Shown one piece after another: positions 1 through 61,123 of a DNA stretch of 64,000 nt; positions within the stretch are counted from its first letter, which is position 1; each line of letters starts with the position of its first letter. Origin of the DNA: Xestospongia bergquistia. Its lineage: Eukaryota; Porifera; Demospongiae; Haplosclerida; Petrosiidae. Below the pieces are notes generated by a model that saw only the letters and a list, made by a program, of their open reading frames with translations, did no database searches and was not told where the DNA came from. The stretch spans positions 250,501-314,500 of the forward strand of contig OZ014411.1 in NCBI GenBank assembly GCA_963965975.1, given 5' to 3'. A program made the translations under genes and the position numbers.

Positions 1-152
1 ATTTAGTGCTATATGCAGTTGAAAGGTAGTATTACAGATGCTTTCAAACATATCATAAAGGTGTATGCAGTAGACTATAATCAAGATTGTTTATTAATAT
101 ATATATATAATGCTGTACTTTATGCTTTTCTTATGAGACATTCTTCTCTTAG

Positions 153-3100
153 TTGCTTCAATTTGAGTCCCAGGTTCAACCTTTTAATTCTTGGGTGAAC
201 AAAGTCCTTTTAACTTTGGATGACTCAGAGCCAATATATGGTGATGTATCCATTGTCAATGAAAGAATGGATAATCATAAGGTATAGCTATTGTAAAATG
301 TATATGATACTAGAATGAATGTGTTTGCATGAAATATATTTATCTTTAAACTACAACTGACTTGATACTGTCTTGAAAATCTTGAATATATCTAGGACAT
401 TGAATTGAAATAGTTGTTGTATTTGCATGTCTTTGATACAGTCTTTAATTAAAGTAGTGTCAAATCCTTCCTTACAACTTTATTCTTTTTACAATGTTTG
501 TTGTTTTAGGCTTTTCAGGAAGATCTTGAATCTCATCAGAAAAGTATTGATGCCATAAATGCATCAGGAAGAAATATAATGGAAAATGTACTTGATAATT
601 CATCAGCCATTAAGGATGAATTAGATGAACTTAATACAATGTGGGAAGATGTCTGTAATAAATCTACTCTGAAACTTGCCAGACTTATGGAAGCAATGAA
701 AGTGAGTGTTCAATCTCCACATAACCAAAGTATATTTCTGAATTTGGGGGCCATATTTTCTTAATATGAAACTTTGCCTGTTACTTAGATAATATACAGT
801 TTTGAAAGAGATTGTAATATCATGTATTCACTGATCTATTCATTCATATATCTTCTCTATCTATATATATATACACATTAAAGAAAGCCACTGACTTTAG
901 TCAAGGTGTTCAAGACATATTAGATTGGGTAAAAGAGATGGAGACATCACTGGAAATGATGGCTCCACCAACCTTTAATATGACAGAATCTCAAGAACAG
1001 AATAAAGAACAAGATGTAAGCTTTAACTTTTATATTTTTAGGTTTTGGTTTGAGCACAATGAGAAATAATAACAACTTCTACAACTTAAATTTTAAATTT
1101 TAAATTGTTATGTGTTAAACGTTTATGACTTATACAATTTTGTCGATGAAATTAATGACATTAATCCACTAATATCTTGACAACTTTCTATCTTATAGAC
1201 TTTAAAGAAAAAGATGTTAGAAAAACAATTACAATATGAAGAAGTCTTACAAGCAGGCTTAAGTCTGAGTCAACTGGCTCAACCTCAAGCAGACACAATT
1301 TTTCAGCAATTAGAGCAACTAAAACAAAATTGGGCAGAGCTTAAGGCTAAAATGAATGCTCGCAGTGAACAGCTGGCATCTATTATGTTGGAAATTCATG
1401 GATTACAAGATATATTAAAACCATTCTCTTTGTGGTTGTGTGAGGCAGAAGAGACAATGACCTATGCTGAGAGTATTCCTATTGGAAATGACTTGAAGAT
1501 GGTAGATCAACAATTAGCTAAACACAAAGTACGTAATAAGGAGTGCTTTGTCAAATTTGACCTTGAGATGGACATCATGACAAGCCTTGAATGTTAAATT
1601 AGTACTTTAGTCAAAATATTGTCTTAAAACTATTTGAAGCATATTACATGCAATTGTCAATCAATGATTTTTTATACATTTTCATATTTCTTTTTTAAAT
1701 ATTAGTCATTTCAAGAGGAAATAGCTACACATCAGCCTAATATGGATGCCCTTAAGCAACGAAGATCAAGTGTGTCATCTCAGACCAACACAACAGATGT
1801 AAGTGGTACAATTGATCAGCTATATAAGCGATGGCAAAGCCTTCAAAAGAGATCATCTGAGTATTATAAACAACTACAAAAGGAACATGAAAGACTGGAA
1901 TTTATTACTGTTGAAAGGTTTGTAAAATATTCTATCATTTGAATTAATGTTAGAGTAAAGTGTGTATATTGTAATTATAAAACTATTATCACTGTGGTAA
2001 ATGATATTTTATAAAAACTTGTAAATGCATAGTTGAGAATTTATTCAGAACAGACAAGATTCCTACACAAACACTATTTTATTTATTACATACATAAATA
2101 AAATTAATGGACATTCATAAATAAATATATTAATTTTTCTCTCATTTCATAAACAGTTCTTTCAATTACCAAATTTGGTGTAAACATTTTTTTGCTTGGA
2201 TGAAGGAACGAAAATTAAATGCAATTACTCTTTTCCGTCGTTTTGATACTAATGATGACAAAAGGTTGACAAAAGAAGAGTTTATGAAAGGACTAAAAAA
2301 AGATGGTTAGAAATAAAAATTTAAAAATTTATAAAAATTGTGTTGTATGGTGAATAAATGGTGGATGGGTAGAAGGAATGTAATATAGTAAAATACAGTC
2401 TGTATATATAATTATATTATTTATAAAACTATAGGATTTACTAGTAATCCCATTGAGCTAAAGATAATAGCTGATCATAGTGATCGAAATAAAAGTGGAT
2501 ACATTGATCTCTCTGATATAAATGCCTTGATTAAGGAGCAACAATCATGGAAAAAGCCTGCTAGACATCTCAGTGAAGCTGAAAAAATTGCTGAAGAGGT
2601 ATATGTATATTAAGGTTTAAGTGATTGTGAATTATGTGATATGTTCTTATAGGTCACTCTTCAAAAATCAAAATGTAAATGTTGCCCCAAGTTTAAAGCT
2701 GAGAGAGTGGGTGGAACAAATTACAAGGTAAATACAGCTTGTCTGTAATATCCTGAATAATTATTATTTATGTCTTTTTAGTTTGGTGATTCACATATTG
2801 TCAGACACTTAAGTATGCCAGGCCATACTGTCATTGTTCGTATGGGTGGTGGGCACTAGACATTGGAGAAGTTCTTGAAGACTCAAGATCCTTGCAGAGG
2901 TAAGATATCAATTATTTTAAAGTATTTAATATGTAGTTATAGAACCAGAGACCCAAACAGTTACTGAAATCATAGATATAAAACATGCAGCTAACTCACA
3001 ACAAGTAATACTTGTATCATGAAAGTTTTGTCTATGATATCTTTTATAAATTAATCAGATTGACAAGAGTAAAACAGATCAGTGCAGTAATTCAAAGGTG

Positions 3101-3267
3101 AGTCCTGTCTAAATACTCATCTCTTAATTTTTTAACATTTTTTGTATACACTTTAGACCAAAATTCCAAAGTACTTTGGAACAATCCCTGAACATTTTGT
3201 TTCATACCAGGGTATAAGCAAAATTCCACAACCTCATACTAAGATTAAAATGCCTTCAGGTCGTTAA
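153..3267 (+). CDS. 3' end of a spectraplakin-tail paralogue, partial, with premature stop
   Basis: These are the last 12 coding exons of a gene that begins left of the window: 153-281, 510-701, 884-1015, 1199-1528, 1706-1917, 2157-2305, 2435-2598, 2653-2727, 2782-2899, 2943-3004, 3059-3097, 3157-3267. All have GT-AG borders and compatible phases. The first five encode spectrin-like helices with the usual tryptophans (LNTMWEDV, LKQNWAEL). The next two carry EF-hand loops DTNDDKRLTKEE and DHSDRNKSGYID. Then comes a GAS2 domain (CKCC cysteines, VIVRMGGGH, DPCR), which in spectraplakins binds microtubules, and a tail with SKIP. The region is nearly identical to 54057-57188. The codon at 2857-2859 is TAG where the other copy has CAG (Gln), which would remove the end of GAS2 and the whole tail. 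Downstream exons are otherwise open. Either a recent loss-of-function allele or paralogue, or a sequence error. Confidence 0.88.
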
Positions 3268-6342: not shown

Positions 6343-6346
6343 AGTT

Positions 6347-7690: not shown

Positions 7691-7727
7691 ACAAGCAAGA
7701 CGGCCTAACCAGAACTCACCAGAGACA

Positions 7728-8463: not shown

Positions 8464-8650
8464 TAATGACAAGAAGTCAACTTATTGAAGCTGAGAACAA
8501 CGATCCAGACATACAACAGTGGAAAACTAAAGAGAAGCCAAGTTTCCAAGGAAAAATTGCTGGAGTATTGTGTCGGAGGTGGATTCCTCGCAATCAACCA
8601 GCTGAGATGTGTGATCAGGTGGTGCTACCCCGGTCACTATGGACCAATTA
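8464..8650 (+). pseudogene. Remnant of the region preceding retrotransposon integrase
   Basis: Short frame with LIEAENNDPDIQQWK, GVLCRRWIPRN and DQVVLPRSL. This resembles the stretch that precedes the integrase zinc-binding domain in Ty3/gypsy polyproteins. It stops before any HHCC motif. Its nearness to the protease remnant implies that the reverse transcriptase part has been lost. Confidence 0.5.
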
Positions 8651-8699
8651 ATAGATTATCAAGTATGTTTATAGGCAATATGCTATGTTACGCTGTCTA

Positions 8700-37088: not shown

Positions 37089-40000
37089 ATGGCTTCTAAA
37101 CAGGAGCTTGTGAGTTGTTGATCTTTCTAATTTAATTTAATTTGTCAGTTTATACTTTTGGTTGTTATACTCTGTGCTACCTTATCATGCAGAATTTAGT
37201 CAACACACCACTGACCAAGCTTCTTTTGAATGAAATTTAGACAGACAAATGGACAAATATACAGTACACACACACTCACACACACAAGCACACCATGTCT
37301 GCCTACTGCTGGAAGTATTGTCAAACTGCTTATGAACAAAATACTTCTCTTTTCTACACATTCATTATTTCTACAAACTAAGAATTTGCTGAAGTATACT
37401 ATTGTTATTAACAAATGTGTAGGTAAATAAAAAAAAACAATTTGAAACCATACATCCTTCTCTTTCTTGTTGATCTTTTATCTAATTTCAGAATACAGAC
37501 TGTTATTATTCAGTTGTTTGTAGGATTCTGTGATTTAGTGTTGTCTTTCATGATTTTGCATATTATATAAAATAAATCTGTATTGCAGAGCTGTGTTGTA
37601 GCAGTATTAAATGTCTCTGGGAGAATGTAACAGTCCATTTTTCTGATTTAGTTGCTTATAATAATAGACCTAGTATCAAGATAACTTTATTTCAGACAGA
37701 CTCCACTTATAATAAATATACAGAAAAATTAATTTTATAAATTTTTTTTCTATAAGAATGAAGCACTGCTCACTGCTGTTAAGAATGGAGATGTACATGG
37801 AGTGAAAGCTTCTCTAGACAAGGGAGCAGATGTAAAAATGCATGATAATGAGGTTAGTGCTCTAGATATGCTCTAAGAAATCAACATTTAATTAATGTTA
37901 TCATTACATTCAATTTACTTCCTTAGATCCAATTGACACCTTTGCATTGGGCTGCTGAAAAAGGTGCAACAGAAATTGGAAAATTGTTATTACAGAAAAG
38001 AGCTAATCCAAATGCTTCAGAAAATAAGGTAAGATTTTGAAAGTAGAAGATTCATATTTTATTAAGGCTACTAATGTGTGCATAATCATATTGCAAGCAA
38101 ATAGAAATTCAATAATATGTTTATAATAGACATTTATAGACATTTCACGTAACATGTATGCAACTTATAGCAACATATTAGAGGTAGAAAGGCTAGCTGC
38201 TATATCAGCAAGTGTATCATTGAGGAATATACTGTGACATAGACATAAGCATGATATTGTAATGATCCATGAAAACAGTATCATTATTTCTAATTGCATG
38301 ATAATTTCTTATTATATATATGTACTATGTATAATTATGAAAATAAAGTGAAGAAAATGATCACAGTAGCAATATATTCTGGTTTAGCAGCCATTTGATT
38401 TCAAGTACCAGAAAAAATGTTGACTTAGTTGTCAACAACTGTTTGTGTTACTGATAATTATGAGTAGTAGTGTTGGTATACTTAGGTCAGTATTAATAGC
38501 TATTTAGATCATGTACAAATGTAATTCATGAATTGAACCTCATTTTTTAAGATAGCAAATTCTTTACTATAAAGAAGTAAATTACCAAACTTTAATTATG
38601 ATTTGAACAATACTTTCAATTTTTTGCTCTTACATAATATTATATACAGGCTAGACATTTTTTTTCAATATTATTGATTGTAGTACAATGTTATTTCATA
38701 AAAATGTTTATTTAGTTCAAGGTATCTCCACTTCATTTGGCAGCTGCTAAGGGTGATTCAAAAATGGTAGAATTATTGCTTGAGTATATGGCAGATCCAA
38801 ATGCTACAGATGATAAAGTAAGTATATTGAAATTACAAGCAATATTTTGCTATTTAAATTACAACAAATGATAAGAGACAACATGCAGCACCTCTTCAAT
38901 ACTAGCAAATATATTGTATACAAAATAGAATCTTCAATAATACAGTTTATCCTTTTATAAATAGACTAAAACTGCAACATAAGTATGCTTTGAAATATTG
39001 TTAGGCTTCAAAAGACAAATAAATTATTGATAACTTCCAAGTTCACTACATTCAAGACAATGCTAAATAAAGAGATAGAGAGATTTACTTGCTTATGGGT
39101 TTGACTTGAACAATGAAAAGATTGATAATCAGACTGAGGCACCAAATGTGACTGAAATGAATGTGAACACCACAGACAGAATAACAATTGAGCCTATAGG
39201 AAAATAGATTGTAGATATAGATGACTATCATAGTCATCTTGTATTTTGATACTAGGCAGAGAAATATCTGGAAAAGCTGAAGATGATCCATTATTTCCTT
39301 TGCTATAGTGACGTCATGATCCCGTATACATAAACATTAGTTTCTGATTTGAATCAAGCTGCCAACATACAGCATTATGACAGTTACATTGACAGTCTAA
39401 TAAGAAATTTAGTAAAAAGTGAACATTGCCTACTATTTTTAGTAATAGCTCATCTCCATATGCAATGTTATGTGTTCGTCAACTTAATAATTAAACAAAT
39501 ATTAAATAAATTATAAATTATTAAAGAATAAAGTCAAACTTTGTTATCTATGTGGATGCATTGAATAAAATTGCTAGATCTTTATTATGATTAAAATCAA
39601 CACCATTTCATGACTATGTTTTTACTCTCACTTTTAAAATTACTTAGGGAAGAAATTCCTTACATTTTGCCACATCCAAAGGTAATGCTATACTTTTTCT
39701 ACCTGCTGAAAGAGAAAGAATTGACTATGTAAGTTACCTAATTCACAAATAGAACATGTTATATTACATTTAATTATGTCTTCAATTTTTTTATAGTTTG
39801 AGAAAATTAAAGTATTTTTTCGGCGGGCATATCAACGAGTGGCTGGAGTACGTCAAATCTATTCAGATAATACTATTTCATATTTAATGTTTTGGTCTCA
39901 TTACACTACTATTGTTTAATGTACTTGTATATCAGAGAAGTAGTAGGATAATATAAACTACTAACTAGTATTAAATTTATATCAACAATCAGATCAAATA

Positions 40001-43000
40001 TATATCTTTGAAATATTATATGTAACTATACAATAAAGTTAAAGTAGATTTTGTTTTTAAAATAATCTTTTCAGCTTCTGCTTAATGTCAATACCTCATC
40101 AGTCATCAAAGCTTTTACTACAAAATATTCTGTATTTAGTTCATTGTGGCAATGTCCTACTGTATTTGAGTTTATTATTGCAATGTTCAGCACATAAGAC
40201 AATATGCTAATCGCTGCTTGTATAGCATACACTGTAAAAATTAATATGTCATTTTAACAACTAATTTGTAGTTTACATAGATGGATTACTATGGAATATA
40301 GAATTTATGTGAATTACTCATTGTATACTTTTTTGGTATGTAAACATACAACATACCAACAAATTACATAGTGAGCAATTCTCAAGAATTCTAAATTCCA
40401 TAGTAATCCATCCATGTAAACTACAAATTAGTTGTTAAAATGACATATTAATTTTACAGTGTACTCATATGTGAATGTTTAAAAATGAGTTCTGTTTTTT
40501 ATAGCTCCAGGAACCACCATTACAGACTGAAGAATCAAATGAAAGCACTCCAACAGTGAAATTGTTACTTCAGTATGGAGCTAATCCAAATGAAGTGGAC
40601 CATGTTAGTGCAAATTTACTATTTGCATGAAAGTACTTATTTTTACTCAGGTGGGTAATACAGCTTTGCATTATGCTTGTATAGAAGGAAATGTTGACAT
40701 CATCCAATACCTTCTTGCTCAAGGAGCAGATGCTTCAATTGTAAATGCTGATGGTAAAAGTCCCTTGGATTCATGCCAAGATGCAAACAGAGATGTCATT
40801 ATTAATCTCTTTGTTGAGTACAATCCAAGGAAAGGTACTTAATTTAAAGTAACATCTCACTCTAGCTTGAATAAACAATTTAAATTATGCAAATTTTCTT
40901 GTGTTTGTATAATTAGTTCTTGAAAAAGTTTTTGGTTGGGCTGTTGAAAATTTTGATGATGAACAAGTCTTCGAGAAAACTGATTATGGTTTCCAGGTAA
41001 TGATTCCATCATCATCAGTCAAAGAGGGAAAGGAAGTCGATATGAAAGTACGGGTTGCTTTACCAGAGAAGTCTGATATCACAATTCCGGAAAATATTAA
41101 TCTTGTCAGTTGTTTCTATAATGTCGAAACTAGTGAAACATTTACCAATCCTATTAATTTTTGTCTCCAACATAATGTTGAGATCAAGTCACAAAAAGAT
41201 TCTGAACAATTGGTCTTTCTAAGAGCTGTTGGTCCTCCTCCATACAATTTTGAGGAGGTGGGAGATCAAGTATTTAAACCAAATGACAACTCTGGTGTAG
41301 TACCAATCACTGATTCTTCTGTTTTGGTGGCCATAGGATCTCGTTCACCTGAACTAGTTTGCAGTTTTCGGTATACAATGACACTGTTTTTCAAAGTAAT
41401 GAAGGAGTCATTATGGCAAGTTAAGGCAGTCATAACAAAAGATCTTGGACCTTTTAATGAGGTATGTAACAAAATTATTTAAATAGTAATAATTTTAACA
41501 ATTCCAATTACTTATATTGCAAAGGTGATATGTATAAAAAAGTATGATTATGGAGAAAGCATAATTTGACTGAAATTTCATCATCATTTTATTAGAGAGT
41601 GAAAATGGAAAAATGCTTCAATGATTGGAATAAGAGGGAGCCAGTCTCTTTCTACTTCAACCCAGATGTCAAAGAAATAACAATGTTAATTGCTAATGAA
41701 TTTTATATTATTAAACCACTGGGACGACTTCGGGTACAATCAATTTTTTTTTAAAAAAGGTTCATTTTTATTCATAGGTTACTAAAGAAGACATTGATGA
41801 TAGTGTTCCAGATTCTGCACTACTTTATTTACATTTTAACATCAAACTCAATGTCACTACTCAAGAACTTCCTGACTTAGAGCTCACGTTTAATGGCATG
41901 AGAGATGAGAAGACTATAGTAATTGCCAGCTATGAATTAGAAAACAAAAGAGGTATGGTTGGGGATTGTTGCTAGAATCTGACTTTTTATTTTATTGTAG
42001 GTCAAAGTTTTAAGCCTCCTGGTATGGAATCCACTTCACCTGAAATTTCCAGTGAATTATTATGTGAGTAAAAAAGATGTTAAGTTGAACAGTAAAATGT
42101 GTAAGGAAAAGAGAAATCTTTCATAGTTTGTCCTTGTATATAACAATTGTTTACAGTAGTTTATATCACCATAAATGACCAAAACACTACTTTTATAGGT
42201 AGCTCATATGATTGGTTTTGTAGTTGCTTTAACTGTTGATTAAGATGCCATTTGTTTTCTATTTGCTTAATTTATCTATGTTGAATTAAAAGTAATATAT
42301 ATGTGAAACACTTCATTTGTTATTAGGTAAAGCACCTAAGATGAATCATCTTATGACTTTACTGAGCAAAATTAGATTCAAATGGGAAGAGATTGGTGGA
42401 CAACTTGAAATTAGTGAACACGAGTTAGAAAATGCAAAAATGGAGAATGGGCTACAAAACAACACTCAAAAGCTTGCATATATGTTACGAAAGTGGAATG
42501 ATACTAAGTCTTGTGAATATTCTTGGAGAAAGATTATCTCTGTTGTAGAGGAGCCACCAGTTGAAAACAAAAATATAGCAGATGAGATACGTCAGTTTTT
42601 AGCAAGGCCTATTACTCAGCACGAGTACATTCCACAAGACACAAGTGGTAAATAAATACTGCATTTATAATTAACTTTCTTGTTGGAATCCCCAGGTACT
42701 TCTCCAACAACATTTATTATTCCACAGCCAGTTCCACCAAAACAAGCTACAGAAAAACAGTAAGTACAACACTTTTATGCTGAATAATAATTATTTGCAT
42801 GTATTTGTGAAACAGTTAATAAAATATATGAACAATGTGAAATCAGTGTGTGTGCTTACATTAACCTGTTCTAATACATTATACTAATTTAGAATTACAT
42901 GTTATTTTTTGACAAGACTACCAACAATAAAATTATTGATAAATGTCAAATACCAGTAATCAACAAACATCTGTTCATTATGTATGTGCAATATTAATTT

Positions 43001-46000
43001 CTATAGAAAAGAAGAGTTTGAGTCTGTTTATTCCTCTTTCTTTAGTTGTCAAGAAGAAAGAATCCAATGTCAGGACAAACTCAAGTTAGAAGTCAATGAT
43101 CACACGAATGGACATCAACACCTCAAAGTAAGCTTCAGAAACTAATGAATGAATTAATAATAATATTTAGTAATATTTAAAGTATTGTATAGTCGAGTCT
43201 TAATTTCTGACACAACATTAATGACACAAATCAACTAAATAATATTATAGTATTGTATTTTAACAATTACATTGACATTTAGAAAATTTTACCTATCAAA
43301 TTCATCTAAATTTGATTGGAAGTAATAGTGCTCATTATTAATATGAACGTTTTCTACTTCATATATCAGAGTTGCCATTGAAGTGTATGTACACCTATTC
43401 ATCTAAGTTAAAGTAAAATATCCTTGTCAAAGAGATGTTAATCATCCCGTGGATAAATATTTCTGTTTCATCACTACAGTCTATATCCTCTGAGATACCA
43501 GCTCATGTGGAACATTGTCAAAATGAACAGTCTAATACCATAAAGAAAACAGAGGAGAAGGAAGAAATGAAGGAGAAATTTGAGAAATTAAAAAAACACT
43601 GGGAGGACTTACAGGTTTACAATATATTTAAAATTTGTGTATTTAGAATTTTGCTTATTTTCAGAATGCTCCAATGAATGTAGAGGTCATTACTGATATT
43701 GTTGATAACTTAAAGTTGTTCTATATATCCTATGATCAGCTGGTAACAAAAACAAACACATTGCTGAAAAAACTTCAAGAGTATTCTTCATCAACTACCA
43801 CCATAGAAGGGTCAAAGGAAAAAAGGGTGGAGCTTGAGGTTGGTGTAATCCTATCTAACTAGATAGGTATAATAAAATTATTAAACATTTGTGACACATT
43901 TTTAAAATATTGTTATTGATTGTGTATTATTGATACATTTTTTAATTAGAGTCTAGTTCAAGAGCAAAGATCCCTACAATCTCAGTCTGATGCTTTAATA
44001 TCAGATTATGATCATTTATTGGAATATGATTTACTCTCTGACAAGACTCATTTTCAAAGTGATATTGACTTTTTGAGAGATCAGTTAAAGAATTGTAAGC
44101 TTCTAAAGGACAAGAAAAGCAAGGATTTGATGGTGAGTGTCCCTTTGCTATAATATGTGGTTGCTACATTAACATTTTGCCTCTTTTTGTGTGATTTGTA
44201 ATCTCAATACCTGTATTGTCATATCTCTAAATGTAACAGAAGTGAAAACTACTAGGAAAGTTTATCTAATATTTAATTCTTCCTGTGTTAGTAAATTTCT
44301 AATCCTTAATCTCTATAATTATGGTATATGCAGTACTCTATTAGCATAATTAAAATTTTTGTAGCTTATAATGAGAAACAGATAGAGCTGATCTGTGATA
44401 ACAACTTCAATTTTCTCTTTATAGCATATCACTAACCGACTTCAGACACTAGAACTGAGCAAGAGTGACTTTGAGATTTGGTTAACTTCCACAGAAAATA
44501 AAGAAAAAAATTTAAGTAGTTCTCTTGTGAAAAATGGAATCAAAATGACTGAAATGTTGAAGGTGCAGGCTCTGGTAAGAATTTGTTGATGCATGATTTA
44601 ATGTGTAAAAATAAGATTGATGTATGGCAAAATAAAACACAAGACAGATGAAGAAAAGTTTGATAGATAAATGTACTGGACTAATCACTAAATAAAATTT
44701 TGCAATATTATAACTGAGATGTACAAAACTATCATTTTACATTTGTATAGAAAGTGAAGGAAGATATCACAGAACACAAGACTTCTCTCGACTTAATTGG
44801 AAACTTTGTCGTTTCTCTTTCAATTTACATCAATGAATCTCACTCACAAGAACTAGAAGCACATTTTGCTATCATGAAGTTTCGTTATCACGTTGTAGAT
44901 TTCACTGTTCAAGCATACGTTATGGAGGTTCAACTTAAAAGTAGAGCTGGAGATTTACATTCATTGCAAGGGGCAGCTGTCCAAAAATTACCATTAGTTA
45001 ATCAAATTAATAGCACTAATAAGATTCATGACCAGTTAGATTGTTATCAGAGTTTCATAGAAGAACTAAAGTCTCATTTTGTTTTCAGACAACATGCTGG
45101 TCGATCAGATGCTAATTTTTCAAGAGCTAAAATGAGCATGATTTCACAGGACTACTCTAAGTTAAAATCTCTCACAAAGATGCGGTTGGTAAAGTTGAAG
45201 CTATTTCTACAGAGAGTTGAATCATTTGAATGTTCTCTTGAAAAATTAGAAGAGAATATTTCTAAATGGGAGGTATTACAACATTCATTAGATCCTCCTA
45301 CACCTTCACCTTCACTTCTTCAATCTCAAATTGTTAACATTGAGGTAATGTATTCAATTTGACTTTAATAATGTTACTATAGAAGTCACTTCACTTTATT
45401 GCTTGACATTTTATGTGTGAAAAAAGAATAACATTATTAGACTCTTAACTTAGTTTTATAACAATCTTAATATTACCTTAAATACTGAAGTGTTTATTTG
45501 TGTAGACCATTCAGTCTATGATTTCCAATCACAAACCAGACTTTCAGACACTTGTTGTAGAGTGTCAGGATATCTGCTCAGGACCAGAAGATGAAGAGAC
45601 ATACTTAGATGAATTGAAAAAACTGGTTATAACATCTAGTTGTTTAATAGAGGAGGAAACAAGACAAGGTATTAATTTTATACTTGGTAGTAGACTTAGG
45701 ACATTGCAGAAATGTGTGCAAATAATAGTATCAGCTATTTTATTTAATACATTCATCAACCTAGTAAATAATACTACAAACTGCAACCAATGAATTGTTA
45801 TTGTAAGTCCTTTCTTTTGATTGCTCATGCAATACATTGATGTAGATTTAAAGTTTAAATTCTAGTAAATAGTAGTTTTATCTTGAGCATTTATTTTAAA
45901 AATTAATAGCACAGGAATACTTTTATTAACCTTTTGATAACATTAATTATTATCAAAGAAAAGAAGGACTCTAGTGCTTGTTTCCTTTTCATATCTTGTT

Positions 46001-49000
46001 TCAACAAATGAAATGATGTTTTCATTCTAATTCATTGATAAGTCTATTGCTTAAATATAAAAATATTGATTAATTTATTTTATGAATTTTACTAGGTCAA
46101 CCTGAACTACAATGTAGACTAGATAAAAATAAAAAACGTCTACAGAAATTGAGTCAATTCTTTTCTGAGAGATTGTTAAAAGTTACAGCTCTTTGTGATA
46201 ATTTGAAGAAGTTTGTTGGTCTCACTGATGAGTTGGAGACATGGTTACATGAACAAAGATGTGCAGTAGCTGACTTGTCAATTAAAGACCCTACTTGCAA
46301 AGTTTTACAGGAAAAATTAGCGACTTTTCAAGTAATTTATTTATTTGTTCTTGATAAAAGTACAATGCACTAGGCTTTAAAAGTATCTGTCTATGCTTGG
46401 CTAGTACATTATTTTATTTTCATTCAATTTAGTCATTACAAAATGATGTCAAGCAGAATACTTTCAAGACAAATCTACTTGCAAAATTGTATCAAACTAT
46501 TGCTTCTGATATCTCATCTGATGATACAGAGTTATCAGTTTTGAAAATAAAATTGGAAGAGGTACAGAGAAAGTGGTCTGACCTGTCTGCCCAAATAGCA
46601 TCTGCTCCAGCAACTTTAAAACCTTCTATAAAGTTTGCAATGTCATATGAAAATGGAAAAAAAGAACTGACATCATGGATGGAAGAGGCTCTTGATGATC
46701 TTACCAGTCTTGAATCCATTCCATGTCAGCCTGAGGCTATACTGGAACAGAAGATGAAACTTGAGGTATGATATGTTATTAGATAGAAAGGATGTATTGC
46801 ACAAAGGAAAGATGGGTGGTGGATGTGTACTAACCATCTAACACATATATCTTTTACTTTAAACAGAATACAAAGACAAAATATAATGATTTAGCAGCTG
46901 TTTTAGCTCAATGTAACAAAGACGGATTCCAGTTAGCCAAATTTATACAAGACTGCACTTATAGAGATCATTTGACTGCTGATATTGTTGACCTTCATAA
47001 GAAATGGGATGATATTGGTAAGGTTTTCTGTTTTTCCATTGCTATATTAATTGTATAATCAGTTCCTAATTGCTAAATTATTTTAGCATACCTATAATAA
47101 AGCAGTAAAATACAATTTATAAACTTATGTGATGTTCCTTATCCATTTCAGGTAACAAGCTAAGTGAAAACTTTGAAAAAATAAACTCTAGTCTAATGCA
47201 AACACAAGAATTTCAACAAGTGGCTACCAGTATTGAAGGATGGGTTAATACCACACAGAATACTTTAAAGCATTTACAACCCATAGCTGCCCGTGTAGGA
47301 CTGATAGAATCACAACTTGAAGGACTTAAGGTCAGGACACATCCAAGTAGTCTTAGTCAGATTACTAGATTACTAAATTATAATGTACATGTTCAAATTT
47401 GACTAATTTAACAAACCAGCAATTAATTCAAAGGAAACACCAAAACGTTTTTTGTTTAGAAAATGAATTACTATTAATAAAGCTAAGCATAATTACAAAT
47501 TTTAATTTTTTAAAAATTACTATTGTCTAGCCAATACAAGAGGACATTAAACTGAACTATACTTCATTTGAACAAGCTAAAGAATTGGGAAAGAAAGTAG
47601 CATTTAAGGCTACTACTGAAGAGAAATCTAAAATTGAAGCAAGACTGCATGCCTTGGAGTTAAATTTTATAGAAGTCAACAAATCCTGTGAAAACAGAAT
47701 GAAGAATTTACAGGTTAATAAATGAATTGTTTGATAGATGAAACAACAGATGCATGTATAATATTGACTTGCATTAAAATTTTAAATCAAAATATTCATG
47801 TTTACAAAATTCTTAGAGTACACTTAGATCAGCTACAGACTATGAGGATAAGTCTTCACATCTTTTTGAGTGGTTAAAGAAAATGGATGAAAATCTTTTA
47901 TCTTGGCCAGCCAAACAAATTTCATCAAAAGAATTGAAGGATTTAGAAAAAAGGGCTGAGGTAAAATGACATTGATGAATTGATTTATCATGAATGATAA
48001 TCTACATGTACATAAATAAGATATCTGATGTGATTACTTATCTTAATATAATATTAACACACAGGATTTCAATCAGTTGGTTCTGTCTTATCAACACAAA
48101 ATTGAAGAAATGTCAACAAGTGAATCAACTCTCTTCAGTGTTGACATTTCTGTACTACTTGATTACAAGATTTCTTCACCTAAACCACAACGGAAGGGAT
48201 CTCAACGATATAAAGAAAATGTTTTACAAGGATCTTCATCTTCTCAGCACTCACATTTAGATCCTACAATGAGTTCTGTGATTCATGGGCAGGTTTTAAT
48301 TAGGCCTGGATCAGAAGAAGCTATCAAAATTGGTACAAAGATACGGCAACGTTATGAGAAGTTGAAAACTGATGCTAAGTGCATGCAAGATGATGTAGTG
48401 GTACAGTTAGAGACAGTTTTGACTTATGAATCTAGTTATTATGACTGTTTTGAATGGCTGGAAGAAACATTGTCTAAATTTAAAGAAATTGGTCCACTTC
48501 AACCATCTTATATTGTACTAAAAACTCAACAAGATGTGGTGGAGGTGAGTTATTAACAAATGTATGGTCTCAAGGTTATATAATGTTACCAAAGTCAAAC
48601 TTATGCAGCTATTATAATAAAGGTTTTCCTTATATAAACAACATATAATAACAGTTTTCATACAAAATCACTAACAATGTGTATTTCTAAAATTCCTTAT
48701 TTATTACAGAGACTTCAAGTTGAATTGCAGAACAAGCAGTCTACTTTAGATTCAATTACTGTAAAAGGAAAATCCCTCATGGATAGTTGCTGTCACAATG
48801 AATCACATGATGAAGTGAAGAAAGCTCTAGAACAATTAAATTACAAGTGGAAAGATCTGTTAAGAAAGCTTAGTGAAAAGTCAGATCAATTAGCACAAGG
48901 AGTGAAACTCTCAATGAAGTATGAAGCTCAGGAAAGTGACTTCAATTCATGGTTAATGAGCTGTAAAGAGAATCATGTTTTAAAATGTGATTTGACTAGT

Positions 49001-50647
49001 GATTTTGAGCAAATCCTTCAAGATCTCACTGTATGTTATACTTTATTACAATCGTACATATTATCTATGAATAATATAGAACTTTGAGGCTGAGGTTTCT
49101 TCTAAGAAACAGCATTTAGATACCACAATCAAGTATGGACAGGATTTGGAATCATTTGTGTCCTGTAATAATCTGGAGACTATAGCATCTGCCACGGTAG
49201 GCTATGCTAAATTACAGGACTGCTACGATGACTTAGTTAAACAACTTGACAACAAGAAAAGTGAACTTGAACAGAACATATCTAAAGTTAAAGATTTGCG
49301 GTTAGTGAAATTGCTCTAAATTCTCAAATATGCAATATCAGATATTTTATGATGTACTGTTTTATATATCAGCATACTACTGTAAGTCTATTATTCCATT
49401 TAGAAAGCAGATAAAAAGTCAAGTAGATAAACTAGAGCATTTAAAGTGTCTTCTTGATAACCATGAACCTCCACATCTTTCACCTGAACAAGTAAAATGG
49501 CAGTTGCAGCATCTTGAGGTTAACTTATCATTTAACAAAATGATATACTTACTTATACTGTAACAATAGATTCACTTAATCTTTTTATGTAGAAAACCTC
49601 ATCTGAGTGGGTTGAGTTGCAGTCTCCTCTAGAAAAGCTTTTAAAATCTGTTGAAGACTTTGCAAACCATGGTACCCACAAAAATATTTATTATAATAAA
49701 ATATAGTAATAATGTCTTTTAAATTCACTATGTTCATTTCTCCAATCCTCTTCCTATTTTTAGGTAATGACATTGAAATAAAAGCATGTGAACTTTCTAG
49801 CTGCAATAAAACTGTCAAGACTCTCCTAGATCTTTGGATGGATAAGTTACAAGCTGTACTGAAAGCAGCTACTCAGTTTAATGAAGACTATGAAAAATTT
49901 AGTCAATGGATAACGGGGACGCAGCTAAAGTTAAATGCATTAGAAGATGTAGTAGCTTCAGTAGATGGAGTGAAGAAACAGATAATGGAAACTGAGGTAT
50001 GTACGTGTCTGCATTGTTATATATATTTGTGTGTGTGGTATTTGATTACTGCAATTTGCTGATTAAGTTATTAACAGAGATTGTTCTATGCTTTGTTACT
50101 TAAATATCTCTGCTTCTTTTTCTTTTGTCAGGCTTTGAAAAGTGAAATAATTCAACATCACCAATCACTTCAACAGTTACTGAAGCATGGACGAGAGATG
50201 ATGAGTGAAGCTTCACCAGAGGATCATGCCAAAACAAGTGATTGTTTAGCAAATGCGCAAATAAATTATGATATTATGAAGAAACAAGTCTCTAGTCACA
50301 TGAAGACACTAAATAATGGGCTAAAAAGTGTAAGTGTAATATTACTTACATTGATATTATTTCAAGTCATTAAAAGTAGTGCTTACTGTTATGCTACTTT
50401 TGGTAGTGATAATTTCTTTGCCTTAAATTTAAGGCTCAACCAATCTATGGCAATATACATTTAAGTAAAACCTCTGCAACATGGTCAAATCACAGTTATT
50501 GTACATTAATCAGGTGTATTAAGATTTACAATGTCTGAAGAAAGCTTTGAAATAACTCCCACTTCCTTCTCTTTCTGTCATTTATTCCAATATTATGTCC
50601 TACTTCCCTATACCTGTCTTTCCATATATTATATGTGTATGTTTATA

Positions 50648-50679
<32 letters not shown>

Positions 50680-53600
50680 ATGCATGTATGAATTTCTGTG
50701 TGTATGGATGGATGTACATATTCATGTACGTATGCATGTAACATGAATTTTATCTCATTCCAAATTTCAATGTATTAAAAGTTAGAAGCCACATTTTCAA
50801 AATACATATGTTGACTATAAATTAACATACTTCTTATGATGATGATGCTTATCTTTACAATAAAGAGACTATGTGTTAAGCAGGATTTACTCCATAAGTT
50901 GTTTTCTCTTTAATTAGTCTGAAGACTTTTTGAAATCATATAATGAAGCCATTCAGAAGATTGAGGTATTTTCAACTGATATAGACACAATTCCAGCTAC
51001 AGGAACAAATATCGAGACTGTTAAAAGGCAACTTGAACATTTAAAGGTAATGATGTATTTATGTTAACAAATTATTTAGTATATATCTTAAGTGATGAGT
51101 CCTTTTTGTACTAAACCTATTATATTTTTTTATTAAAATCATTGATGTTGAATTTGTATTAACAGAAATTTGAGACTGAGCTGCAGAAAATTAAGCCAAT
51201 AATAACTGCCTGTAACACAAAAGGGAAACACCTCAAAGAATCTTGTCATCGAGATCCTTGGGTGGATACAAAAATAGTTGAAGTGGATACAAAATGGAAG
51301 AAGCTCCAATCATTTTGTGATTCAAGGAAGCATGAGTTGGAGATTGCTCTTCTGCAAGTAGGACAGTTCCAAGAGGCTCTTGCTGAACTATCAGAGTGGA
51401 TAGATGAGATTATGAATGTTTGGAGAGAGAAAGAGACATCTGTTGTTTCTTTAGAAGACTTAGAAAGTTTGCAAAATGAATTAGAGGTATGTTGCATAAT
51501 GAAAAAAATAAATAATGAATGATAGCTAGAGAATAAATTTGAATTTGTTGTTATAAAATTACCAATTGAAATTTTTGTATAAAATAATGTACTAATTTTA
51601 GAATTAATGAAATCTTTTATGTAATTGATAGGCTTTGCAAATAGAGATTGTCAAGAAAGGTCTCAGTGTTCAGTCATTACAAAAAATGGATATCGCTGGT
51701 AGCAACGATGGTTCTAGTTCAGAGATCTCTAAAAAGCTCAAGGAATTCAATGAGAAGTGAGTACATCTGTCCAGTGATCCAAGCAATTTTTTGATAGTTT
51801 GCTATAAATGTATTAATTGTTATCACCTTACAGATGGGAATCTCTTAATGACCTCACAAATGAAAAACAAAACACCCTTTCAACTGCAATTAAACAAGCC
51901 CGTACTTTCCATGCCAAATTGAAAAGAATAGTGGATCAATTAAACAAATCAGAAGAGCAATCCATTCAGGACTGGACACCACATGGTCTTCCAGAGACTT
52001 GTCAAGTCGATTTAGAAGAACACAAAAAAATGATGGATGAAGTATTAATGAAAGAATTAATGGAGGAATTGAAAACAGAGGCAGAGGCTCTTAAAAGTCA
52101 GGGCAGTGCCAGTGATCAAGAAATCGTAGGTAGTTTGATTTTGGAAGTTGAAAATAGAATGACTGATATCATTGCAAATATGGAAGAGAAACAGGTTTGA
52201 TTCAGAAGAATGCACAGTTATTGAAGTGATAGTCATTGTTCATCTAAAGTTTTTAATTTAATCAAGTTAACAAATAAAGTCACCCTCCACTGCAACTATG
52301 TGATAATAATTAACAACTTTGCTTACTAAAACATTTAAAACTTAACCTATGTATATCTCATACATAAAGTGCTTATCATTATTCTGTTTAATATCCTTAT
52401 TTTGTCTTTAGACTCAACTAGAGAAAGCTAAAGTAGATGCTGATGAGTTTGACAAATGTCATAATACCATATCAGACCAGTTACAACAGTTAGATAAACA
52501 ATTTCACGATCATTCAGTGATTCAAACAGATTTTGAATCTGTTAAACTTCAACTCCAAAGTTACACAGTAAGTCTACATAAACAGACTGAAAGGAAAACA
52601 ATAGAGAGAACAATATTTTATTTGTAGTTTGTTTTGTCTTAGACTTTAATGAAACAGTTAGATGAGTTAAAGCCTCGTGTTAAGGTTGTAGAAGCCAGAG
52701 GAATGTATCTAGTAGAGAACTGCACTAAGGAAGATGGAGATAATATAAAGGCAAAATTGATGGATTTCAGGTAAATATGGCTACAATAATGTTCAGACAA
52801 AAAGGTTGTTAGATAGATATGTGGATGGCTATATGGATTGATAATATATAAATTGACCGTGATCATCTATTTGATCATTCTTAGGGCTTATTATGATGTA
52901 CTACACAGCAATTCTCTCTCTCAATTGTCTAATATTAAGGAGGCTTTGTTAACTCATGGACAATTTGAACATGCATATAATGATCTAAATGGATCATTAT
53001 CCAAACTTTGGGTCCAATTGCAGAATCCAGAACCTATTACTGGACAGTTGGATCATATCACTGATTTACTTGACAAACATCAAGTTAGTAGGAACTTATA
53101 ATCATGCTCTCTATTCATCCATTATCTAATATCATTATGTTTACAATGAATGATATCAATGCTGGATAGACTAGAATGACAAGGAATTGGTAAAAGCTCT
53201 TTACAGAGCTACCTTTTCTTTTAAAGTTGTAGATGGAGATATTTTCTTTCATTTTCATTATAAAAATCTAAACTATTGGTAATAGTAATTGCTTTGTGTT
53301 TAGTTCAATGTCATAGGTGCTTTTTCTTATCCTGGCAATGCTTCCATAACTTTTAAGGTAGTGTCTTAAAATTGTGTTTGTCACCCTATCATCATGATTT
53401 ATACCCAGTTGTCAATATCCTAAGCAATACCATAGAGTTCCAAATTAAGAGACTCATAATTTTAGACTAGAAATGACCTATAATTAAAGCAATAGACTTT
53501 TTGATTAAGTGCCATACATTACCACATCATCTCTCTCTCACACTCTCTCTCTCTCTACATATATATATGGACTACCATCAAATTTAGTGTTGTTCTTATT

Positions 53601-56600
53601 GATCATTAAGCAAAGTTAGTTGCTTTGTTTGTTTACTCAATTTAGACTCTGAGAAAGGAAATCAGTGCTTTTATTATCAACTATGAATCATTGACAAAGG
53701 TTGGTAGAAAACTAATGGAGTCAGATGTAGAAGACAAAAAAGACCTTGAAAGGAAATTAACAGATCTTCATCAAGAAAAGGAAAGTGTGGAGAAGATGTC
53801 AAATGATTTACAAAAAAAACTTGAAGAAGCTAAAAAGAAGGTATATAATAATTCTTAATGCTAAATAGTGTAGCCGTAGTCAATACATTTAAGAATGTAT
53901 TTGCTAATTTAGTGCTATATGCAGTTGAAAGGTAATATTACAGATGCTTTCAAACATACCATAAAGGTGTATGCAGTAGACTATAATCAAGATTGTTTAT
54001 AAATATATATATAATGCTGTACTTTATGCTTTTCTTATGAGACATTCTTCTCGTAGTTGCTTCAATTTGAGTCCCAGGTTCAACCTTTTAAGTCTTGGGT
54101 GAACAAAGTCCTTTTAACTTTGGATGACTCAGAGCCAATATATGGTGATGTATCCATTGTCAATGAAAGAATGGATAATCATAAGGTATATCTATTGTAA
54201 AATGTATACGATACTAGAATGTATGTGTTTGCATGAAATATATTTATCTTTAAATTACAACTGACTTGATACTGTCTTGAAAATCTTGAATATATCTAGC
54301 ACATTGAATTGAAATAGTTGTTGTATTTGCATGTCTTTGATACAGTCTTTAATTAAAGTAGTGTCAAATCCTTACAACTTTATTCTTTTTACAATGTTTA
54401 TTGTTTTAGGCTTTTCAGGAAGATCTTGAATCTCATCAGAAAAGTATTGATGCCATAAATGCATCAGGAAGAAATATAATGGAAAATGTACTTGATAATC
54501 CATCAGCCATTAAGGATGAATTAGATGAACTTAATACAATGTGGGAAGATGTCTGTAATAAATCTACTCTGAAACTTGCCAGACTTATGGAAGCAATGAA
54601 AGTGAGTGTTCAATCTCCACATAACCAAAGTATATTTCTGAATTTGGGGTCCATATTTTCTTAATATGAAACTTTGCCTGTTACTTTGATAATATACAGT
54701 TGTGAAAGAGATTGTAATACCATGTATTCACTGATCTATTCATTCATATATCCTCTCTCTCTCTATATATATATACACATTAAAGAAAGCCACTGACTTT
54801 AGTCAAGGTGTTCAAGACATATTAGATTGGGTAAAAGAGATGGAGACATCACTGGAAATGATGGCTCCACCAACCTTTAATATGACAGAATCTCAAGAAC
54901 AGAATAAAGAACAAGATGTAAGCTTTAACTTTTATATTTTTATGTTTTAGTTTGAGCACAATGAGAAATAATAACAACTTCTACATCTTAAATTTTAAAT
55001 TGTTATGTGTTAAACGTTTATGACTTATACAATGTTGTTGATGAAATTAATGACATTAATCCACTAATATCTTGACAACTTTCTATCTTATAGACTTTAA
55101 AGAAGAAAATGTTAGAAAAACAATTACAATATGAAGAAGTCTTACAAGCAGGCTTAAGTCTGAGTCAACTGGCTCAACCTCAAGCAGACACAATTTTTCA
55201 GCAATTAGAGCAACTAAAACAAAATTGGGCAGAGCTTAAGGCTAAAATGAATGCTCGCAGTGAACAGCTGGCATCTATTATGTTGGAAATTCATGGATTA
55301 CAAGATATATTAAAACCATTGTCTTTGTGGCTGTGTGAGGCAGATGGGACAATGACCTCTGCTGAGAGTATTCCTATCGGAAATGACTTGAAGATGGTAG
55401 ATCAACAATTAGCTAAACACAAAGTATGTAATAAGGAGTGCTTTGTCAAATTTGACCTTGAAATGGACATCATGACTAGCCTTGAATGTTAAATTAATAC
55501 TTTAGTCAAAAACATTGTCTTAAAACTATTTTAAGTATATTACATGTAATTGTTAATCAATGATTTTTTATACATTTTCATATTTCTTTTTTAAATATTA
55601 GTCATTTCAAGAGGAAATAGCTACACATCAGCCTAATATAGATGCCCTTAAGCAACGAAGATCAAGTGTGTCATCTCAGACCGACACAACAGATGTAACT
55701 GGTACAATTGATCAGGTCCATAAGCAATGGCAAAGCCTTCAAAAGAGATCATCTGAGCATTATAAACGACTTCAAAAGGAACACGAAAGACTGGAATTTA
55801 TTGCTGTTGAAAGGTTTGTGAAATATTCTATCATTTGAATTAATGTTAGAGTATAGTGTGTATATTGTAATTATAAAACTGTTATCACTGTAGTAAATGA
55901 TATTTTATAAAAACTTGTAAATGCATAGTTGAGAATTTATTCAGAACAGACAAGATTCCTACACAAACACTATTTTATTTATTACATACATAAATAAAAT
56001 TAATGGACATTCATAAGTAAATATATTAATTTTTCTCTCATTTCATAAACAGTTCTTTCAATTACCAAATTTGGTGTAAACATTTTTTTGCTTGGATGAA
56101 TGAACGAAAATTAAATGCAATTACTCTTTTCCGTCGTTTTGATACTAATGATGACAAAAGGTTGACAAAAGAAGAGTTTATGAAAGGACTAAAAAAAGAT
56201 GGTTAGAAATAACAATTTAAAAATTTATAAAAATTGTATGGTATGGTAAATAAATGGTGGATGGATAGAAGGAATGTAGCATAGTAAAGTACAGTCTGTA
56301 TATATAATTATATCATTTATAAAACTATAGGATTTACTAGTAATCCCATTGAGCTAAAGATAATAGCTGATCGTAGTGATCGAAATAAAAGTGGATACAT
56401 TGATCTTTCTGATATAAATGCCTTGATTAAGGAGCAACAATCATGGAAAAAACCTGCTAGACATCTTAGTGAAGCTGAAAAAATTGCAGAAGAGGTATAT
56501 GTATATTAAGATATAAGTGATAGTTAATTCTTTAATATGTTCTTAGGTCACTCTTCAAAAATCAAAATGTAAATGTTGCCCCAAGTTTAAAGCTGAGAGA

Positions 56601-57188
56601 GTGGTTGGAACAAATTACAAGGTAAATACAGCTTGTCTGTAATATCCTGAATAATTTTTATTTATGTCTTTTTAGTTTGGTGATTCACATATTGTCAGAC
56701 ACTTAAGTATGCCAGGCCGTACTGTCATTGTTCGTATGGGTGGTGGCCACCAGACATTGGAGAAGTTCTTGACGTCTCAAGATCCTTGCAGAGGTAACAA
56801 ATCTAATATATTTAAAGTATTTAATATGAAGTTATAGAACCAGAGGCCCAAACAGTTACTAAAAGTATAGATATAAAACAGGTAGCTAACTCACAACAAG
56901 TAATACTTGAATCATGAATATTGTATCTATGATATCTTTTATAAATTATTCAGATTGACAAGAGCAAAACAGATCAATGCAGTACTTCAAACGTGAGTCC
57001 TGTCTCTATTATCTTACTGAAAACCCAGTTCAAATTACTTATTTCTTAATCTTTTAACATTTATATATCCACTTTAGACCAAAATTCCAAGGTATATTGC
57101 AATAATCCCTGAAAGTTTTGTTTCATACCAGGATAAAAGCAAAATTCCACAACCTAGTACTAAGATTAAAATGCCTTCAGGTCGTTAA
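37089..57188 (+). CDS. Gene C: ankyrin-repeat/ZU5-like/death-domain protein fused to a spectraplakin-type tail
   Basis: I follow 54 exons with compatible phases, 9723 bases, 3240 aa. Early exons: 37089-37109, 37757-37852, 37927-38028, 38716-38817, 39648-39728, 39797-39847, 40505-40603, 40651-40834, 40917-41461, 41596-41733, 41778-41952, 42001-42063, 42327-42647, 42696-42759, 43046-43127. The rod and tail exons are listed with those modules. Order: ankyrin repeats (8-245), ZU5-like plus UPA-position region (246-531), death domain (553-659), linker, spectrin-like helices (709-3001), EF-hands (3002-3106), GAS2 (3107-3170), tail with SKIP (3225-3228). It is probably a cytoplasmic scaffold joining death-domain or ankyrin partners to actin/spectrin and microtubules (inference). 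The start matches gene A's. Automatic pipelines might split it near 43.1-43.5 kb, but the 352-bp intron there is in frame and leaves little room for another promoter. Confidence 0.83.
37757..40834 (+). other. Gene C ankyrin-repeat module
   Basis: Exons of 96-102 bases in phase 0 each encode about one repeat: ALLTAVKNGDVHGVKASL, LTPLHWAAEKGATEIGKLL, VSPLHLAAAKGDSKMVELLL, then an abnormal repeat, then TALHYACIEGNVDIIQYLL. The abnormal one begins SLHFATSKGNAILF (39648-39728), is broken by a 17-codon basic exon (39797-39847) and resumes as VKLLLQYGANPNEVDH (40505-40603). Ankyrin repeats bind protein partners; the partner here is unknown. Confidence 0.82.
40230..40461. mobile_element. Tc1/mariner-like MITE in an intron of gene C
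   Basis: 232-bp element with inverted repeats of about 75 bp: CACTGTAAAA at 40230 and TTTTACAGTG ending at 40461. It is flanked by TA on both sides (40228-40229 and 40462-40463), the target duplication typical of Tc1/mariner. No coding capacity. It sits between the exons at 39797-39847 and 40505-40603. Confidence 0.85.
40917..41952 (+). other. Gene C ZU5-like and UPA-position domains
   Basis: Residues 246-531. ZU5-like hallmarks are VMIPSSSVKEGKEVDMKVRV, LVSCFYNVETSETFTNPI, CLQHNVEI and SSVLVAIGS. The following β-rich part includes VKAVITKDLGPF, PVSFYFNPDVKEITM and LYLHFNIKL. Gene A has the same exon structure and sequence pattern. ZU5-UPA-death supramodules are known from UNC5, PIDD and ankyrins; in ankyrins ZU5 contacts spectrin. 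The UPA label is by position and general pattern. Confidence 0.68.
42327..42647 (+). other. Gene C death domain
   Basis: One exon, residues 553-659. Six-helix death-fold pattern: HLMTLLSKI, FKWEEIGGQLEI, LAYMLRKWNDT, YSWRKIISVVEEPPV and NIADEIRQFL. The central tryptophan and spacing match the gene A and pseudogene death domains. Death domains form homotypic complexes in cell-death and immune signalling; the partners are not deducible here. Confidence 0.8.
43480..53840 (+). other. Gene C spectrin-like rod, unduplicated part
   Basis: Exons 43480-43614, 43665-43838, 43950-44132, 44425-44574, 44751-45344, 45506-45668, 46096-46331, 46433-46765, 46867-47017, 47152-47330, 47531-47713, 47817-47960, 48065-48544, 48710-49030, 49080-49300, 49404-49518, 49593-49671, 49764-49996, 50132-50329, 50918-51046, 51166-51486, 51632-51756, 51834-52194, 52412-52567, 52643-52770, 52885-53083, 53646-53840. 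The sequence is almost wholly helical, with recurrent tryptophans as in spectrin repeats: LKKHWEDLQ, VQRKWSDLSAQI, HKKWDDIGNKLS, NYKWKDLLRKLS, DTKWKKLQSF, NEKWESLNDLT. An unusual Ser/Pro-rich insert (KISSPKPQRKGSQ) lies in 48065-48544. About 20 repeats estimated from length. Confidence 0.82.
50640..50760. repeat. (TA)n(TG)n microsatellite in an intron
   Basis: About 16 bases of TA followed by a TG run, then degenerate ATG-rich sequence, in the intron between 50329 and 50918. Confidence 0.8.
54057..57188 (+). other. Gene C tail: last spectrin repeats, EF-hands, GAS2 and SxIP
   Basis: Exons 54057-54185, 54410-54601, 54786-54917, 55094-55423, 55602-55813, 56053-56201, 56331-56494, 56547-56621, 56676-56793, 56838-56899, 56954-56992, 57078-57188. 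EF loop 1 is DTNDDKRLTKEE (3032-3043), with Lys/Arg/Leu at late positions but acidic 1, 5 and 12. EF loop 2 is DRSDRNKSGYID (3065-3076). GAS2 has CKCCPKFKAE, FGDSHIVRHL, TVIVRMGGGHQTLEKFL and DPCR. The tail ends QDKSKIPQPSTKIKMPSGR. In vertebrate and fly spectraplakins this EF-GAS2-tail unit binds microtubules, and SxIP recruits EB1. Confidence 0.87.
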
Positions 57189-59579: not shown

Positions 59580-61123
59580 ATTCTGAATCCTGTAATTCTC
59601 AAGGAGCTGTTCGTTTAGTTTGGGGCTCTGGAGACTGGGAGGGTAATCTCCAAATCTGTATTAACGATACCTGGGGATGGGTCTGTAATAACAATTTTGA
59701 TACTGTTGCTGCTCAGGTTGTTTGCAGTCAGTTAGGATACACAACACCAGGTAATTATTAATAACAATTATATATTATGTTCACTTTCAAATGAAAGCAA
59801 ATGTGACTATTTTTACATGAATATGTGTGATGATAACTTTAAAGTTCCGAGGCTCAATTTGGTATACATACCTTAAGCCTAATATTAATTTATGTAGTAA
59901 TTACTACTACTACTGTAATAAAGGTGTCTAATGAAATAATTGCTAAAAAGAGAACATGTTAACTATTTACTTCACAAATGAAAGTTTAAGTTAAGTCGAC
60001 GTGACTCCAAAGATTCGCAAAATGAACATGCTAAATTTTTACTCCACAAATGCAATTATTTTTAAGTGAATCAGCGTGTCTCCAAAGAATCACAAAATTA
60101 ATACATGCTTCAGTTTAGATAACGAGCAAAGAAATTACAGATTTGTTTTAAAACTAAGTTGTGTATAGGCAGTCAACACTGGCAACAAATTTATTCGCCT
60201 TGGGTACCCAGCAAATGATTTTTTGGTAAAAAAGCAATAAGAGAAACTGTTTCTTAAAGTCTAGCCCTAATCCAACTCGTGCTCTATTGGTATATATGAT
60301 ATTGCTTTGTTCATGTTTTTCATGTGACATTGATATTTCAAATGTGTTGAATATTACTAGCATAAGCTACAGTCAATATGTATAGGCAATTAAGCATTTT
60401 ACCATTTTTGTAAGACATTTTTACATACCTTTGTATTGTAAAAGTGTTAAAGAAGTGTAATACTTACTATATTTAATTGTTATCATTGCATGAATCGGAA
60501 AATCTTCAAAAAGCTAGTTCAATTAATTTTAAGACTTAGGATATAATAATATAACTTTTACAGGAGCTACAACATTTAGTGGATCTTTCTATGGTTGAGG
60601 TAATGGCACTATATGGATGGACTATGTCAGCTGTACTGGAACAGAGACAACTTTATATAACTGTGGCTATTCATCTCCAAATAACACCTACTGCAGTTAC
60701 AATAACTTAGCTAATGTTATATGCCGAAGTAAGTTTCTATATATGTAAATCATACTATTTATTCCTTGTTCATAGGTGGTGGTACATGTACTAATCAGGA
60801 CATACGATTGCTGCCATATTATTATGATAGGTCATTAGGAGTTATAGAAGTATGTATTAACAATCAATGGGGCACTGTGTGTGATAATGGTTGGGGTGAT
60901 TGGGATGCTGCAAGAGCAGCTTGTAAACAATTGGGATTTTATCGAGCATGTAAGTTTAAATTAATGTTAAATATAAAAGATGGACATTATAATGATAGAT
61001 ACATACTGGTGTTGTGGTGGCCTTGGACAAGGTTTTGGCGCTATTAACATGAGAGATGTTAGCTGCCCATCAAATAGTCTTAGTCTTTTCTCCTGCAGTT
61101 ATAATTCCACTCAAAAGTACTAG
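59580..61123 (+). pseudogene. SRCR-domain relic with in-frame stop
   Basis: Four exon-like blocks with consistent phase-1 borders: 59580-59750, 60564-60728, 60776-60949, 60999-61123. Together they encode two scavenger receptor cysteine-rich domains: GAVRLVWGSGDWEGN, WGWVCNNNFDTVAAQVVCSQ, IWMDYVSCTG and TLYNCGYSS; then GVIEVCINNQWGTVCDNGW, DAARAACKQLGF, GAINMRDVSC and SLFSCSYN. SRCR domains are extracellular ligand-binding modules, abundant in sponges. A TGA at 60596-60598 falls where the family usually has G-x-G before the IW motif, and TAG at 61121 ends the second domain. No signal-peptide exon with fitting phase found upstream. Confidence 0.75.

Follow-up and report, generated by a model that had tools for sequence, protein, structure and literature searches.

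The stretch of the sponge Xestospongia bergquistia genome analysed here (the window; 64,000 nucleotides of contig OZ014411.1, forward-strand positions 250,501 to 314,500) carries a long predicted gene at positions 37089-57188. Its product would join a head of ankyrin repeats, a ZU5 domain and a death domain (ANK-ZU5-death) to the rod and tail of a spectraplakin. We call the contig bearing the window C1, and two other contigs of the same genome C5 and C6. The gene was rebuilt with a spliced Viterbi model that had to start at 37089 but could end anywhere; it terminated at 57188 with 59 exons and 3252 codons including the stop. An earlier Viterbi model with weak intron penalties yielded 137 exons, many of them absurdly small, and was discarded. 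By hand curation, weak exons in the ankyrin region were reduced to one ankyrin exon, two doubtful small exons were dropped and one split exon was merged, resulting in 54 GT-AG exons at 37089-57188 with no internal stops and 3214 amino acids. Comparison with a tandem copy of the gene, described below, then set the beginning of exon 15 at 43007 instead of 43046, in the same frame, so that the final product has 3227 amino acids. An earlier note on this DNA, made without database searches, had proposed a single frame over 54 exons, which holds, as does its phase 0 join at 43127/43480; the other join it gave, 42759/43046, had to be corrected to 42759/43007 (phase 2).

The predicted protein runs from ankyrin repeats through ZU5, the death domain and a linker to a spectrin-repeat rod, EF-hands, a GAS2 domain and an SKIP motif (Table 1). 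The protein was scanned with Pfam in three pieces at E-values up to 1, and matched Ank_2, ZU5, Death, Spectrin, EF-hand_6 and GAS2. No CH or plakin model was found in any of the three pieces. By motif script, SKIP at residue 3212 fits the SxIP pattern; it is common to the tandem copy and a related locus on C5 but is not in the model of a CH-bearing spectraplakin on C6. A spectrin-repeat rod followed by EF-hands and GAS2 is the arrangement of a spectraplakin. Because the protein lacks N-terminal tandem CH domains, we regard it as a putative spectraplakin-derived chimera and not as a canonical member of the group.

Table 1. Parts of the predicted fused gene and of its tandem copy, in window coordinates.
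Feature	Position	Strand	Evidence
Exons 1-8, start codon and ankyrin repeats, aa 1-243	37089..40834	+	Ank_2 5.6e-37; full-length tandem alignment
Exon 9, ZU5, aa 244-425	40917..41461	+	Pfam ZU5 13.5 bits (cut-off 21); family heads; genome matches
Exons 10-12, between ZU5 and death domain, expected place of UPA	41596..42063	+	Conserved in tandem copy
Exon 13, death domain, aa 551-657	42327..42647	+	Pfam Death 21.1 bits; profile best PDB match FADD, E 0.014
Exon 14, post-death linker, final head exon	42696..42759	+	Length and phase as in tandem copy; C5 linker similar
Intron 14, predicted fusion breakpoint between head-derived and spectraplakin-derived exons	42760..43006	+	Exon 15 matches C6 exon 29
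Exon 15, first spectraplakin-derived exon, first spectrin repeat begins	43007..43127	+	Aligned with exon 15 of the tandem copy and exon 29 of C6; phase 2 entry in all
Exons 16-47, spectrin-repeat rod	43480..55813	+	Pfam Spectrin 6.7e-22, 2.6e-77; C6 phases
Exons 48-49, EF-hand pair	56053..56494	+	Pfam EF-hand_6 4.4e-7; MACF1 EF-hands 5ve9_A 2.2e-14
Exons 50-51, GAS2	56547..56793	+	Pfam GAS2 2.1e-17; MACF1 5x57_A 1.1e-16
Exons 52-54, C-terminal tail, SKIP (SxIP), stop codon	56838..57188	+	Motif script
Tandem copy, 3' end	1..3267	+	GAS2 match at 2773-2898; tblastn; gene model; rest at C1:233012-250500

GAS2 matches were found at seven places in the genome, one of which led to C6:8.16-8.19 Mb. 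There, a gene on the minus strand (C6:8191468-8163047) gave a long model with two CH domains, a rod, EF-hands and GAS2. A Pfam scan of its residues 1-1561 and a short C-terminal piece (E up to 0.05) revealed two CH domains (5.2e-47) and no plakin model within residues 1-1561. The best PDB match of the CH pair is MACF1 (220.8 bits), with beta-spectrin (217.0) and plectin (215.2) close, and the EF-GAS2 part also matches MACF1 best. Residues 679-3181 of the window protein align in a single piece with residues 1456-3964 of the C6 protein at 49.8% identity. Window exons 15-49 correspond to C6 exons 29-63, with equal phases in all 35 pairs, more than expected by chance, and equal lengths in 20. The best match of C6 residues 1-1455 within C1:200501-334500, the 134 kb around the window gene, had an E-value of only 0.028, which indicates that no spectraplakin front belonging to the window tail lies in that region. 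Considering that the front of the C6 protein is unmatched and that the window exons from 15 onward match those of C6 from 29 onward, we place the breakpoint in intron 14. In C6 the counterpart of exon 15 lies inside the gene and, like exon 15 itself, is entered in phase 2. With two rod queries, the only contigs found to carry spectraplakin sequence were C1 (the two fused copies plus an EF-GAS2 fragment at 28.138 Mb), C6 and, with one query only, C5.

The window protein thus resembles the spectraplakins MACF1 and dystonin and the C6 gene in its spectrin-repeat rod, EF-hand pair, GAS2 domain, basic SxIP tail and rod intron phases, and differs from them in carrying an ANK-ZU5-death head in place of CH domains or any plakin match. 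Spectraplakins had been said in the earlier note to start with CH and plakin domains. This is too strict, since the available part of one report describes homologues in Amphimedon (A0A1X7V918) and Trichoplax (B3S1H0) that have neither and still group with spectraplakins (PMC9145010). Compared by description only, that part of the report mentions no ANK-ZU5-death head on either protein; A0A1X7V918 might turn out to be the same fusion. The same source speculates on an ancestor with CH domains, spectrin repeats, EF-hands and GAS2, to which the C6 gene, with CH domains, rod, EF-hands and GAS2 and no plakin model in residues 1-1561, appears to be close.

The head has many relatives in the same genome. 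A search with the window ZU5 exon found at least 126 places at E-values up to 1e-5 and at least 66 at 114 bits or more, counts that are lower bounds as 150 of 267 candidates were scored. The ZU5 and death-domain exons of the window gene are homologous to those of this local ANK-ZU5-death family and share its ZU5 and death exon layout. Both the ZU5 and the Death model were matched by all nine family heads scanned with Pfam (E up to 1). We therefore assign the head, on homology, to a large local family. It is distinguished from the rest of that family by the spectraplakin join, which was found only in two C1 genes and one C5 gene among the ZU5 genes of the genome.

The head had been taken for an ankyrin's, and it does share the order of ankyrin repeats, ZU5 and death domain with ankyrins (24 repeats, ZU5-ZU5-UPA, death domain). 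We rejected this identity on repeat number, a PDB profile search and the literature. The roughly 243 residues before ZU5 leave room for about seven 33-residue repeats instead of 24, and a single ZU5 match region was detected per head in the window protein and the scanned family heads. None of these gave a UPA match at E up to 1. In the PDB, a profile built from nine heads matched no ankyrin or UNC5 chain (E up to 1), its best matches being FADD death domains (E 0.014). Furthermore, according to the available part of PMC5135030, no gene combining ankyrin repeats with ZU5-ZU5-UPA was found in nine sponge species. The long spectraplakin tail is a further difference from ankyrins. Consequently, of the proposal that an ankyrin-type head replaced the start of a spectraplakin, the replacement of a CH-bearing start is retained and the ankyrin identity is not. 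The related idea of two binding partners made into one chain is not supported, as the head does not look like that of a true ankyrin and the rod derives from a spectraplakin and not from beta-spectrin. Searches of GTDB genomes and viral contigs with the head alignment gave 64 and 37 pattern matches, none of them confirmed, in collections that hold no sponges as such and are little informative here.

Between the two fused copies, window positions 14577-22855 hold at least one additional ANK-ZU5-death gene (ZU5 exon at 18212-18784) and a portion of another. Towards the opposite end of C1 (28166986), at C1:28127400-28138609, a close ZU5 relative lies together with the EF-GAS2 fragment of the fused gene; this ZU5 gene pairs with win268k, the window's ZU5 gene, with support of 100/100. 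The arrangement looks as it would after exchange between chromosome ends. A cluster of 18 ZU5 exons lies at C6:8382538-8641352, about 190 kb from the CH-bearing spectraplakin, and the two of its heads placed in the tree described below are not the closest relatives that the fused heads have there.

The tandem copy lies at C1:233012-253767, starts 54.6 kb upstream of the window gene and has the same domain order. With neither end fixed, its Viterbi model formed one gene, running from MASKQEL to KMPSGR, whose exons 14, 15 and 16 have the phases of the window gene. The two proteins align end to end at 82.3% identity. The free model of 55 exons was harmonised by hand at five places, which included dropping one exon and extending another over an in-frame stop; the two genes then correspond exon for exon, 54 to 54. 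Length differences occur in five exons and are always multiples of three, a regularity that is in part built into the harmonised model. Of the 53 introns, 42 differ in length, 10 of them by multiples of three. Exon 14 is identical in length and phase in both copies. The overall dN/dS between the copies is 0.43 (3221 codons). Similarity is uneven along the pair: dS is 0.028 in exons 42-46 compared to 0.243 in exons 16-41, and introns 41-48 are 93-98% alike, well above the remaining introns. This stretch (window 53646-55813 and C1:250240-252417) has the appearance expected after gene conversion.

A diverged locus on C5 also has an ANK-ZU5-death head followed by a spectraplakin rod, EF-hands and GAS2. 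Its rod contains C6-like exons from about C6 residue 931 but is missing the greater part of the middle rod; the C1 rods, by contrast, start at C6 exon 29. In a tree of 22 heads, with rows drawn from the larger family, the C5 head, the two C1 heads and the head of a locus designated L035 (C1:27.239 Mb) form a clade apart from the 18 other heads (support 83/99). L035 has no rod. The nesting of this unfused head among fused ones, together with the differing exit phases of the linker exons (window exon 14 exits in phase 2 and C5 exon 47 in phase 1), would fit two independent fusions, in the C1 lineage and on C5, instead of one fusion followed by different deletions. A single clade of the three fused heads is nevertheless not rejected (p-AU 0.209) and the window and C5 linkers are alike, so that two fusions can be proposed only tentatively, at somewhat less than even chances.

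From these comparisons, the window gene is a predicted chimera in which the 3' two thirds of a spectraplakin copy, the counterparts of C6 exons 29 onward, stand behind an ANK-ZU5-death front, its own CH front having been lost. In the history that the sequences suggest, fusion was followed by tandem duplication on C1, with a related but different fusion on C5. The gene is very probably a single transcription unit. The reading of head and rod as joined in one frame is borne out by the same order in the tandem copy, the juxtaposition on C5 and the complete agreement of exon phases with C6.

Several observations weigh against this reading. In the window copy, both ZU5 (13.5 bits, cut-off 21) and Death (21.1 bits, cut-off 22.6) fall under the Pfam curated cut-offs, and a whole-protein scan of the C5 product (E up to 0.05) listed neither domain. 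Between the tandem copies, dN/dS at the junction reaches 0.89 over exons 14-15 and 0.93 over exons 13-17, from few sites, which points to little purifying selection on these exons. One in-frame TAG, a premature stop, interrupts the GAS2 exon of the tandem copy (window 2782-2899, C1:253282-253399). The window has in-frame ATGs near 42984 and 43435, and in both copies such ATGs precede exons 15 and 16. Finally, the one-gene Viterbi model also chains neighbouring genes elsewhere, namely what we take to be small-GTPase-like genes at C5 and a glutamate-cysteine-ligase-like gene at L035. The model alone therefore cannot prove one transcript, and the case for one rests on homology comparison.

Some of these observations would fit a single transcript from a drifting or decaying duplicate family that has no cellular role in the pathway of either half. 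The TAG would cut the tandem copy short within GAS2, ahead of the SxIP motif, so that its tail may not work, and the EF-GAS2 fragment at C1:28.138 Mb and an overall dN/dS that is rather high for cytoskeletal proteins point in the same direction. The intact window copy of 3227 codons and a dN/dS well under 1 over the aligned length make decay an unlikely explanation.

The ATGs could instead mark the start of a second gene: an ANK-ZU5-death gene would finish with exon 13, and the spectraplakin tail would form a headless gene beginning at about 43.0 or 43.4 kb. Reading through exon 13 in the window does lead to a stop (SGK, then stop), the model is known to chain neighbours, and the Amphimedon and Trichoplax homologues, as far as the available text of PMC9145010 describes them, are headless spectraplakins. 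The stop after exon 13 is missing in the tandem copy, however, and the ATGs upstream of exons 15 and 16 lie at non-matching positions in the two copies. Exon 15, internal in C6, has kept its phase 2 entry, and exon 14 has kept its length and phase in the tandem copy, while the juxtaposition of head and rod recurs on C5 with other rod exons. Since the tandem copy preserves the order including the junction exons, and C5 is similar, wrongly merged neighbours are an improbable account of the join. A mis-join in assembly or annotation is likewise unlikely, as a join of this kind recurs in the tandem copy and on C5.

Two other features were observed in the window. Positions 6001-10000 stand out by a G+C content of 41-42% over 4 kb, compared to 30% for the window, and in this block we found no ORF of 130 amino acids and no tandem or long repeats. 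Just downstream of the fused gene, positions 60733-61044 hold an exon with an SRCR domain (1.5e-9).

In MACF1-type proteins, the EF-GAS2 module attaches to microtubules and SxIP motifs interact with EB1. If the chimeric gene makes one long protein, its EF-GAS2-SxIP tail would bind microtubules and EB1-marked plus ends, the spectrin-repeat rod would serve as a long spacer, and the head could bind partners through its ankyrin repeats and assemble complexes through its death domain. With the CH domains lost, actin binding of the canonical type would be absent and the protein uncoupled from actin. The domains thus hint at a death-domain scaffold tethered to microtubules and uncoupled from actin, a role that we consider plausible, at close to even chances. 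The explanation as a whole, combining the chimeric gene with this scaffold, is on balance probable. A further possibility resembles an integrated decoy: a member of a large death-domain family, expanded in tandem and possibly immune, would have taken up a duplicated host cytoskeletal piece as a bait or tension sensor. It is suggested solely by the size and clustering of the family and by the fact that the fused part duplicates a host protein, and we judge it very doubtful.

Within the open-licence literature, we found no description of an ANK-ZU5-death head on a spectraplakin tail. Headless spectraplakin homologues are already in print, as the available part of PMC9145010 shows, and the new part, within that literature, is the presence of this head on one. 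If correct, the finding provides a fusion, present in at least two forms within a single genome, for which the source gene and the breakpoint can be traced exon by exon and in which a signalling head is joined to a giant microtubule linker. Two predictions become testable: that death-domain complexes can be placed on microtubules, and that sponge homologues without CH domains, such as that described in the available part of PMC9145010, are really chimeras, with a CH-bearing spectraplakin elsewhere in the genome. Were the decoy interpretation true, damage to the microtubule-linked spectraplakin would trigger death-domain signalling, and the fused protein would be an animal counterpart of the integrated decoys of plants.

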